Shown here: one piece after another, positions 16,625-18,386 of the stretch | Position numbering within the stretch: the stretch's first letter is position 1 | Layout of the letters: the number at the start of each line of letters is the position of its first letter | Assembly: GCA_944376685.1 (NCBI GenBank) | Contig: CALWDN010000010.1 | Span: 1-32,373, forward strand | Origin: an uncultured Mediterraneibacter sp. | Lineage (GTDB): Bacteria > Bacillota > Clostridia > Lachnospirales > Lachnospiraceae | Reading direction: 5' to 3' | DNA: 32,373 nucleotides | Notes under the pieces: generated by a model | The model's input: only the letters and a program-made list of their open reading frames with translations | Databases searched by the model: none | What the model was told of the DNA's origin: nothing | Position numbers and translations under genes: made by a program

Positions 16625-16653
16625 AATATAGCAAATGTTGTTAGCACTGTCAA
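16625..16653 (-). promoter_or_regulatory. clpB sigma-A promoter
   Basis: On the minus strand a perfect TTGACA (16653-16648) and TATATT (16630-16625) are separated by 17 bases. This predicts a start near 16618 and a leader of about 43 bases. The -35 box lies within the CIRCE element. Confidence 0.85.
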
Positions 16654-16667
16654 GTGTCGAGTGCTAA
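16641..16667. promoter_or_regulatory. CIRCE operator (HrcA binding site)
   Basis: TTAGCACTG - N9 - GAGTGCTAA matches the CIRCE consensus TTAGCACTC-N9-GAGTGCTAA with one mismatch. HrcA represses class I heat-shock genes through this element. Here it covers the -35 box of the clpB promoter. Confidence 0.93.
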
Positions 16668-16689: not shown

Positions 16690-16800
16690 GTAACTATATT
16701 GAACTTATCTGCATAACATGGTATAGTTACTTAAGTTTAAATTGAACTTTCAGTTTTAATTTTGAACTTTTCATCCATTGCAGATTATATTTTGAACTTT
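16690..16800. repeat. four TTGAACTT repeats and a 9-base inverted repeat upstream of the HTH-aminotransferase gene
   Basis: TTGAACTT occurs at 16699, 16742, 16762 and 16792, the last three as TTGAACTTT. The spacings are 43, 20 and 30 bases, close to whole helical turns. The second copy pairs with AAGTTTAA at 16733-16740 to make a near-perfect palindrome around one A. Separately, GTAACTATA (16690-16698) and TATAGTTAC (16722-16730) form a perfect inverted repeat. The stretch is very AT-rich compared with the genes on both sides. A DNA-binding protein, most simply the XRE-type domain encoded just downstream, is the natural candidate ligand. Confidence 0.8.
16762..16791 (+). promoter_or_regulatory. 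candidate promoter of the HTH-aminotransferase gene
   Basis: TTGAAC (16762-16767, part of the third repeat) and TATATT (16786-16791) are 18 bases apart. This predicts a start near 16798, inside the fourth repeat. AGGAG at 16806-16810 then serves the ATG at 16820. Repeats thus lie at -35 and at the start site, a layout suited to repression. Confidence 0.55.
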
Positions 16801-16819
16801 TTTACAGGAGCAGATTACT

Positions 16820-18328
16820 ATGTCTAATGAAACATTCGCTCAGCGCCTCGCTTCAGCCATGGCAGAGCAGGGCATGAAACAGGTGGATCTGATCCGGGCT
16901 GCCGCCGGATGCGGCGTGAAGCTCGGCAAAAGCCATATCAGCCAATACGTCAGTGGAAAGACAGTCCCGCGGGCAGACATCATGCATTTTCTTGCCGAAA
17001 CACTTCACGTCGAAGAATCATGGCTCCGGGACGGGCAGACAGCACCGGGTCCGGTCAATGCAGATCCGTGCAGAACTATTAATAATGAAATAAACAAGGG
17101 GGTACAGACCATGCGGACTTTTAAGAAATCTTCAAAACTCGACAATGTTTTATATGATGTAAGGGGCCCGGTCGTAGACGAAGCGGCCAGAATGGAAGAA
17201 GACGGAACGCAGATCCTGAAGCTGAACATCGGAAATCCTGCGCCCTTCGGCTTCCGCACGCCGGATGAGGTCATTTATGACATGCGCAAACAGTTGACCG
17301 AATGCGAGGGCTACTCCAACGCCCAGGGCCTTTTCTCAGCAAGAAAAGCGATCATGCAGTACGCCCAGCTGAAAAATATCCCGAATGTATCTGTGGAAGA
17401 CATCTACACCGGGAACGGCGTCAGCGAGCTGATCAACCTCTGCATGTCCGCCCTGCTGGACGACGGCGACGAGATCCTGATCCCCTCGCCCGACTATCCG
17501 CTGTGGACCGCCTGCGCCACACTGGCCGGCGGCAATGTGGTCCACTACATCTGCGACGAAGAATCCGAATGGTATCCCGACATCGAGGACATTAAGAAAA
17601 AGATCACGGACCGGACCAAAGCCATCGTGATCATCAATCCCAACAACCCGACCGGCGCGCTCTACCCGAAGGAAGTCCTTCAGCAGATCGTGGACGTGGC
17701 GCGGGAACACCAGCTGATCATTTTCTCCGATGAGATCTACGACCGCCTGGTCATGGACGATGCAGAACATATCTCCATCGCATCCATGGCGCCCGACCTC
17801 TTCTGCATCACCTTCAGCGGTCTGTCCAAATCGCACATGATCGCCGGCTTCCGCATCGGATGGATGATCTTAAGCGGCAACAAGCGCGTGGCAAAAGACT
17901 ACATCGAAGGGCTGAAGATGCTCTCCAACATGCGGCTCTGCTCCAACGTGCCGGCCCAGTCCATCGTACAGACTGCACTCGGCGGACACCAGAGCGTGCG
18001 CGGCTACATTGCGCCGGGCGGACGGGTTCGTGAACAGCGTGACTACATTTACAAAGCGCTCACCGACATCCCCGGCATCAGCGCCGTGAAGCCAAAAGCC
18101 GGATTCTACATCTTCCCGAAGATGGACGCGAAGAAGTTCAACATCACCAACGACGAGCAGTTCGCCCTTGACCTGCTCCGGGAAAAGAAGATCCTCCTCA
18201 TCCACGGCGGCGGATTCAACTGGGCGCAGCCGGATCACTTCCGCATCGTCTATCTCCCGAGGATCGAAGTGCTGAGAGAAGCCATGGAAAAGATGAAAGA
18301 CTTCTTCAGTTATTACCGGCAGGACTGA
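16820..18328 (+). CDS. XRE-type DNA-binding domain fused to an alanine-type PLP aminotransferase
   Basis: The 502-residue frame starts at 16820 after AGGAG. Residues 5-72 form an XRE/Cro-like helix-turn-helix domain (TFAQRLASAMAEQGMKQVDL, then KSHISQYVSGKTVPR). Residues ~98-502 form a fold-type I aminotransferase close to AlaA-type enzymes: NIGNPAPFGF, GYSNAQGLFSARKAI, NPNNPTGALY, SDEIYDRLV, the PLP lysine in SGLSKSHMIAGFRIGW, and FRIVYLP near the end. Such enzymes pass amino groups between alanine or another amino acid and 2-oxoglutarate/pyruvate. The linker (about 78-97) reads like translated leader DNA and holds a strong internal ribosome site before Met98. Either one fused regulator-enzyme or two products are possible. 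A bidirectional terminator follows. It resembles GntR/MocR fusions in concept but uses a different DNA-binding family. Confidence 0.9.
   Translation: MSNETFAQRLASAMAEQGMKQVDLIRAAAGCGVKLGKSHISQYVSGKTVPRADIMHFLAETLHVEESWLRDGQTAPGPVNADPCRTINNEINKGVQTMRTFKKSSKLDNVLYDVRGPVVDEAARMEEDGTQILKLNIGNPAPFGFRTPDEVIYDMRKQLTECEGYSNAQGLFSARKAIMQYAQLKNIPNVSVEDIYTGNGVSELINLCMSALLDDGDEILIPSPDYPLWTACATLAGGNVVHYICDEESEWYPDIEDIKKKITDRTKAIVIINPNNPTGALYPKEVLQQIVDVAREHQLIIFSDEIYDRLVMDDAEHISIASMAPDLFCITFSGLSKSHMIAGFRIGWMILSGNKRVAKDYIEGLKMLSNMRLCSNVPAQSIVQTALGGHQSVRGYIAPGGRVREQRDYIYKALTDIPGISAVKPKAGFYIFPKMDAKKFNITNDEQFALDLLREKKILLIHGGGFNWAQPDHFRIVYLPRIEVLREAMEKMKDFFSYYRQD
17096..17113 (+). promoter_or_regulatory. internal ribosome-binding site and start inside the HTH-aminotransferase gene
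   Basis: AAGGGGG (17096-17102) lies eight bases before an in-frame ATG (17111-17113) that begins MRTFKKSSKLDN. This is the exact expected N-terminus of a free-standing 405-residue AlaA-type aminotransferase. The DNA just upstream is AT-rich, like an intergenic leader. Confidence 0.65.
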
Positions 18329-18334
18329 CAGACG

Positions 18335-18386
18335 CAGTAAAACGGGGACACAGCGATATTTTCTGCCGTGTCCCCGTTCCTGTTTT
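18335..18386. terminator. bidirectional terminator between convergent HTH-aminotransferase and ctpA
   Basis: AACGGGGACAC (18341-18351) pairs perfectly with GTGTCCCCGTT (18368-18378). The flanks CAGTAAAA and TTTTACTG are also complementary, giving T-rich tails on both strands. It begins 6 bases after the aminotransferase stop and reaches the ctpA stop at 18386. Confidence 0.88.

Follow-up and report, generated by a model that had tools for sequence, protein, structure and literature searches.

A phage CI-type DNA-binding domain fused to an AlaA-like aminotransferase, with a conserved direct-repeat array in its promoter and a candidate internal translation start

The window, by which we mean the whole 32,373-nucleotide stretch analyzed here from an uncultured Mediterraneibacter sp., carries on its forward strand a gene (16820-18328) whose 502-residue product joins a short N-terminal helix-turn-helix (HTH) domain (roughly residues 7-70) to a class I aminotransferase (residues 131-490). 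PF00155 recognizes the aminotransferase fold at 195.6 bits, and in the PDB the enzyme domain matches most closely the glutamate-pyruvate aminotransferase AlaA of E. coli (4cvq, E = 3.5e-171), a chain of 431 residues. The match is restricted to the enzyme part of the fused protein; it spans the whole enzyme with the catalytic motifs kept, which is the basis on which we assign it by sequence to AlaA, and the NCBIfam alanine aminotransferase equivalog scores 379.7 bits, below its cut-off of 534. Identity between the AlaA-like part and its unfused homologues reaches 83%. Of the 104 fused proteins, 103 retain the catalytic motifs in full, the exception (L051) being frameshifted, and the enzyme is therefore probably active. 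That the gene begins with an XRE-type domain, as originally predicted, is borne out, although Pfam HTH_3 reaches 21.4 bits, just below its 23-bit cut-off. No GntR domain is found among the Pfam matches of the fused protein. The intervening linker is hypervariable and predicted to be disordered, with a length of 8 to 63 (median 28) across the 104 fused proteins by our script's measure. With a pLDDT of 67.8 and a pTM of 0.54, the AlphaFold model of the full-length protein has moderate quality, and therefore no dimer geometry was taken from it. The divergent neighbor is clpB, as its ClpB domains indicate, and a CIRCE-like element with one mismatch (16641-16667) lies on the clpB side, clear of the repeats described below. 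Past the fused gene, a terminator-like 10-bp inverted repeat, ACGGGGACAC/GTGTCCCCGT, with a 16-nt loop and a following T run occupies 18342-18377; a terminator scan covering loops of 3-8 missed this hairpin. Rfam at gathering thresholds returned zero matches to known structured RNAs in the window.

Table 1. Positions of the features at the fused gene
Feature	Positions	Strand	Remark
Operator copy 1, TTGAACTT	16699..16706	+	TTGAAC serves as -35 box in the conserved promoter
Extended -10, TG-G-TATAGT	16719..16727	+	Spacer to -35 is 17 bp; predicted start, by inference, near 16734
Operator copy 2, TTGAACTT	16742..16749	+	Just downstream of the predicted start
Operator copy 3, TTGAACTT	16762..16769	+	From the sequence
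Operator copy 4, TTGAACTT	16792..16799	+	Ends 6 bp before the first Shine-Dalgarno
Shine-Dalgarno AGGAG, full-length product	16806..16810	+	From the sequence
TP901-1 CI-type HTH domain	16820..17032	+	Residues 1-71; recognition helix residues 37-45
Flexible linker	17033..17110	+	Hypervariable in homologues; residues 75-96 have pLDDT <50
Internal Shine-Dalgarno-like GGGGG within AAGGGGG	17098..17102	+	Core conserved in homologues
Internal ATG (Met98), ancestral alaA start	17111..17113	+	Predicted start of free AlaA
AlaA-like glutamate-pyruvate aminotransferase domain	17111..18328	+	PDB match and catalytic motifs

Four copies of TTGAACTT precede the gene, at 16699, 16742, 16762 and 16792 with spacings of 43, 20 and 30, just as the original prediction had it. 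The whole window holds 7 copies on its two strands versus 0.59 expected, and the pair pattern TTGAACTT-N8..40-TTGAACTT is found in the source genome (85.8% complete, 171 contigs) only at the array, as 3 overlapping matches. Two symmetrical elements had been noted together with the repeats. The near-palindrome AAGTTTAA-A-TTGAACTT (16733-16749) is present as described but is not conserved, such a left half standing at 2 of 287 copies, the window's own included. Likewise, the 9-bp inverted repeat GTAACTATA/TATAGTTAC (16690-16698/16722-16730) is present, but the four closest relatives do not show it. Because neither is conserved, we reject both as operator symmetry and regard the palindrome, on the sequence comparison, as incidental.

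Fused homologues were gathered by protein similarity alone, giving 105 distinct proteins, of which the 104 with the HTH were kept and L032, which has none, was excluded. In the 250 bp upstream of the 104 genes, TTGAACTT is the most frequent 8-mer, with 287 copies on the gene strand versus 22 on the other; dinucleotide shuffles of the same regions give means of 2.3 and 0.8 and maxima of 8 and 3, respectively. At least one gene-strand copy occurs in 98 of the genes and at least two in 84, with up to five exact copies per gene, while 20 have fewer than two exact copies and 6 have none. Among 25 representatives below 85% identity, 21 have at least one copy, 15 at least two, and 14 a copy in the -35 position. 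Judged by this comparison, the four copies in the window are a conserved putative operator array, far beyond chance. Within the genus, the fused gene is present in 19 of 58 genomes (frameshifted in one, G308), and 18 of the 19 carry a pair of repeats there. Only two of the 39 genus genomes lacking the fusion have a pair anywhere, before a prophage-type repressor gene in G310 and inside an open reading frame in G353. In a family-wide sample of 299 genomes, one per genus, the fusion occurs in at least 30 of the genera, and 16 of the 30 fused genomes have a pair in the searched spacing at the fused gene, in one case on the opposite strand. The pattern is less complete at this level because several genes have wider spacings, single copies or a variant operator. 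Pairs occur anywhere in 66 of the 299 genomes, 16 of these at the fused gene; the remaining genomes with pairs elsewhere, about 50, are no commoner than those with a reversed control pattern (also about 50). Many of the 27 non-fusion pair sites inspected in family and genus lie within open frames, others between genes. A fused gene with one exact copy of TTGAACTT is also found in an actinobacterial record, Bifidobacterium pullorum (L141), which suggests horizontal transfer.

The array is organized around a promoter. The placement proposed originally, with 16762 as the -35 box, 16786-16791 as the -10 box and another copy at the start (16762/16792), is rejected, as the conserved frame is instead TTGAAC at 16699 with TATAGT at 16722-16727 and its extended TG. 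An alignment of five genomes keeps exactly the unit 16699 / 16722-16727 / 16742, and three of the four copies therefore lie downstream of the predicted start. A copy serves as the -35 box, with a -10 element (at least 4/6) at an offset of 22-24, in 74 of the 104 fused genes, leaving 30 without a -35 copy by this rule. At an offset of exactly 23, a -10 of at least 5/6 accompanies 64 copies, and 58 have both the TG extension and a -10 of at least 4/6. The next copy follows the -35 copy by 40-44 bp in 42 of the 74 genes. Spacings between neighbors in the fused set peak at 20, 30 and 41-43 bp, and the 73 distinct patterns are phased at 10.5 bp with a coherence of 0.61 (99.9% null, 0.27). Among the 25 representatives, 10.5 bp is again the best-fitting period, with a coherence of 0.63 that exceeds the 99% null (0.61) but stays below the 99.9% null (0.65). 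In many homologues further copies lie ahead of the -35 box, clustering near -20, -41 and -51; the window has none there.

The array goes with the fused gene. No copy occurs within 280 bp of the start of the AlaA match in any of the 39 upstream regions taken from AlaA homologues that lack this HTH, and one of them has a single TTGAACTT at -378. Forty such regions were fetched, from which L145, being fused, was excluded and in which L180 (from G247, with a different XRE domain) was retained. An AlaA tree from a quick search, comprising 67 of the 104 fused proteins (identity <92%), one more fused row (L315) and 36 others, and omitting L307, L316, L329 and L330 for broken or misread frames, gathers the fused genes into a single group (71 rows, SH-aLRT 99) that includes three unfused members. 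The least-change reading of this tree would be one gain of the HTH and three secondary losses, while the strongly supported branches alone require only two changes. None of the three unfused members retains the array. In the unfused L032, one ATAAACTT remains, before a degenerate promoter.

The HTH itself is homologous by sequence to the CI repressor of phage TP901-1 (E = 4e-9) and resembles it in fold as well, its top four Foldseek matches being the PDB entries 5a7l, 8qao, 3zhi and 3zhm. The TP901-1 CI half-site is given as AGTTCAYR (PMC8516035). Its complement contains TGAACT, a core also found within TTGAACTT; the agreement does not extend to the two flanking bases of AGTTCAYR. Phage loci were chosen from the HTH matches, 12 being fetched among the matches listed (40 of 72), of which L262-L264 were not counted. 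All nine remaining CI-type repressor loci have TTGAACTT on the gene strand within 320 bp of the match start, seven of them more than once, for 21 copies versus 0.37 in shuffles; the phages are partly related, so that there are fewer than nine independent cases. By our reading L262 and L263 are bacterial fused genes, and L264 is a frame without the enzyme. The records behind the first two (MT839381 and MT839198), although labeled Bacteriophage sp., carry an HTH-AlaA fusion gene and for that reason are probably bacterial DNA. In the viral contigs, no relative with the HTH alone was confirmed. These results point to a phage-type repressor domain as the source of the HTH.

In one clade, the recognition helix changed along with the operator. 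The 83 genes of helix class H39/T48 have 252 copies of TTGAACTT and 4 of ATGAACTT, whereas the eight with Q39 and either A48 or S48 have 6 copies of TTGAACTT and 15 of ATGAACTT or ATAAACTT. Six of these eight have a single TTGAACTT with a -10-like hexamer at an offset of 23, convincing in four and far upstream in two. In this clade the array has switched to ATGAACTT/ATAAACTT, with TTGAACTT retained in the -35 copy. As most of these genes belong to one clade, the co-change amounts to about one event. Three observations speak against a simple code: nine genes with Q39 and T48 mostly keep TTGAACTT (21 copies, with 3 variants), L005 with A48 and H39 has five TTGAACTT and one variant, and L023 with Q39 and A48 has neither ATGAACTT nor ATAAACTT.

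Besides the fused genes, a search across the genus with the promoter pattern returned a single site before a small protein in three genomes and the prophage-type repressor gene of G310. The former is a lone TTGAACTT in the same -35/extended -10 setting in the close relatives G304, G311 and G326 (L275, L280 and L284), and the small protein behind it, which we take to be TSCPD-like, is possibly a second target. We claim no wider regulon in the genus, since single copies are insufficient to define targets. The latter (L279/L218) is a CI repressor gene with two TTGAACTT just upstream in the same promoter pattern, among neighbors that presumably encode Rha-like and metallopeptidase-like proteins. 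An XRE-only gene with the helix GKSSVSQYVNG has two upstream copies in G062 (L251). In G038, a genome in which the fusion has no close homologue, three copies 19 and 20 bp apart (L242) precede a permease gene, presumably LivH-like. An independent fusion of an unrelated XRE domain to AlaA, known from one genome of its genus, occurs in G247 (L335 and L332; G247:C6, gene from 35910), where an 18-bp direct repeat, TATCARTATAAAGAAYGG (16/18 identical), at -112 and -26 flanks a TTGACA/TACGAT promoter-like pair.

A further conserved feature lies inside the gene. Met98 corresponds in position to the start of unfused AlaA, and an in-frame ATG stands at this ancestral alaA start in 95 of the 104 fused genes. 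Every one of the 95 has a Shine-Dalgarno (SD) core of at least 4 nt at -17 to -5 of that ATG, inside the hypervariable linker, and for this reason free AlaA is probably also translated, so that the gene probably makes both HTH-AlaA of about 56 kDa and AlaA alone of about 45 kDa. Codon shuffles of the linker (92 genes) yield an SD core in 26%, and in 89 of the 95 genes the internal site ranks within the top 5% of positions in that gene. Five of the remaining genes have an SD core with a GTG (L051) or a shifted ATG (L094, L096, L108 and L118); L130 has the core and no standard start codon, and L027, L122 and L139 have no SD with a start. Alternatively, the internal SD and ATG might be an unused relic of the alaA leader, a pausing signal or part of a GG-rich linker, with only the fused protein being made. 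The fusion probably came about when an HTH frame became joined to alaA via its leader, and codon phase 2, in which GG is often encoded, dominates (76 genes versus 11 and 8 in the other two phases), both of which would fit that explanation. The core nevertheless occurs in all three phases, and so encodes different residues (GG, GE, EE, KE or EA); the site has been kept while the linker around it varies freely; and representatives below 85% identity still have the ATG in 24 of 25 and the SD in 24 of 24. We therefore consider such a relic unlikely, while granting it more weight than the other alternatives below.

Our main reading, with a probability of roughly 0.75, is that the fused AlaA, through its CI-type HTH, binds the TTGAACTT array of its promoter and represses its own gene, while the internal start also yields free AlaA. 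HTH domains bound at the -35 box and just past the predicted start would block RNA polymerase, and it is the location of these two sites that argues for autorepression. Direct repeats two, three or four turns apart on one face of the DNA, combined with a flexible linker, would fit cooperative binding by aminotransferase dimers. The ribosome site and ATG retained in the linker would allow AlaA lacking the DNA-binding domain to be made as well. Dimers that combine the two forms, and so have a single HTH, should bind less well, and the ratio of the two products could thus set repression. Comparison between genomes establishes the conservation and phasing of the array, the promoter geometry, the link with the fused gene, CI homology, the one-clade co-change and the conservation of the internal start. 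It strongly supports autorepression by the fused protein, which we infer along with binding, the sign of regulation, the two proteins and the mixed dimers. The original prediction is borne out in part: self-control by a fused regulator-aminotransferase is well supported in this light, its promoter placement, palindrome and inverted repeat are not, and the tuning by an amino acid or PLP that it proposed is hypothetical. Absence of the repeats upstream of close homologues had been named as evidence against it; the arrays are present, an outcome that favors self-control. The phage-type origin of the HTH and the internal start were overlooked in that earlier reading.

Binding of the array by some other XRE or phage-type repressor of the cell is made conceivable by the repeats that CI-type repressor genes of prophages and phages share with it, which could allow cross-talk. 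We find this improbable, as arrays in the genus track the fused gene (18 of 19 versus 2 of 39 genomes), are absent from all 39 homologues without the HTH, and changed along with the fused protein's own recognition helix in one clade. About equally improbable, in our estimate, is activation of the promoter, instead of repression, by the fused protein. The copies that many homologues have upstream of -35, with the peaks given above, speak for it, but the -35 hexamer is itself one of the copies and another is found just beyond the predicted start, the good extended -10 should need no activator, and the window is without any copy upstream of -35. As for chance or low-complexity DNA, the region is AT-rich, yet the counts in the window, those in the fused set against shuffles and the representatives refute this explanation almost entirely. 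Beyond autorepression with two products, we offer more tentatively, at somewhat less than even odds, that a domesticated phage-repressor module makes a core enzyme its own counter. Mixed dimers would titrate cooperative binding at the phased array, the ratio of isoforms and the occupancy of the enzyme would together set alaA expression, and the arrangement would be convergent with MocR, perhaps with a second origin in G247.

Among known systems, TP901-1 CI, with which we group related streptococcal phage repressors, is close in its homologous HTH, in the TGAACT core of its half-site and in the presence of TTGAACTT near cI genes. A hook and an oligomerization region follow the HTH of TP901-1 CI (PMC7250872), and its operators are paired half-sites, each pair bound by one dimer (PMC4941734). 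In the fusion, the helical hook and C-terminal oligomerization region are replaced by the linker and AlaA. The fused gene has direct repeats instead of paired half-sites, which counts against our main reading, and its divergent neighbor is clpB instead of a mor gene. MocR, GabR and PdxR likewise combine a DNA-binding domain, a flexible linker and an aminotransferase in one chain. Direct repeats spaced by two or three helical turns are among the MocR operators and are explained by head-to-tail dimers (PMC5320631). Repeated direct boxes whole helical turns apart are thus common to both, as a shared property that does not prove membership. The HTH of the fusion is of CI/XRE type whereas that of MocR is a GntR-type winged HTH. 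The aminotransferase part of the fusion is an AlaA-like enzyme with a kept internal start, the fusion has up to five exact copies of its repeat, and the only convincing target found for it is its own gene. By its domains, then, the fusion resembles MocR regulators and is placed outside the MocR subfamily.

E. coli AlaA is the nearest relative of the enzyme domain, by the PDB match and the kept catalytic motifs, and to our knowledge has no HTH. PutA, BirA and NadR are active enzymes carrying a DNA-binding domain that controls their own gene; the fusion differs from them in its phage-type HTH, its repeat array and its probable second, enzyme-only product. In the open-access literature, no paper on an XRE-AlaA fusion or its array was found among the matches listed. 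A self-regulating enzyme, a phage-type HTH and a direct-repeat operator are each of a known kind; their combination with an internal start appears to be new. The XRE-AlaA fusion now has an operator and promoter architecture that can be tested, and, as the internal start is conserved, two point changes would allow a direct test of how a cell keeps regulator and enzyme functions of one gene apart. If the main reading is true, an aminotransferase with a DNA-binding domain acting on phased direct repeats, as in MocR, has evolved independently.
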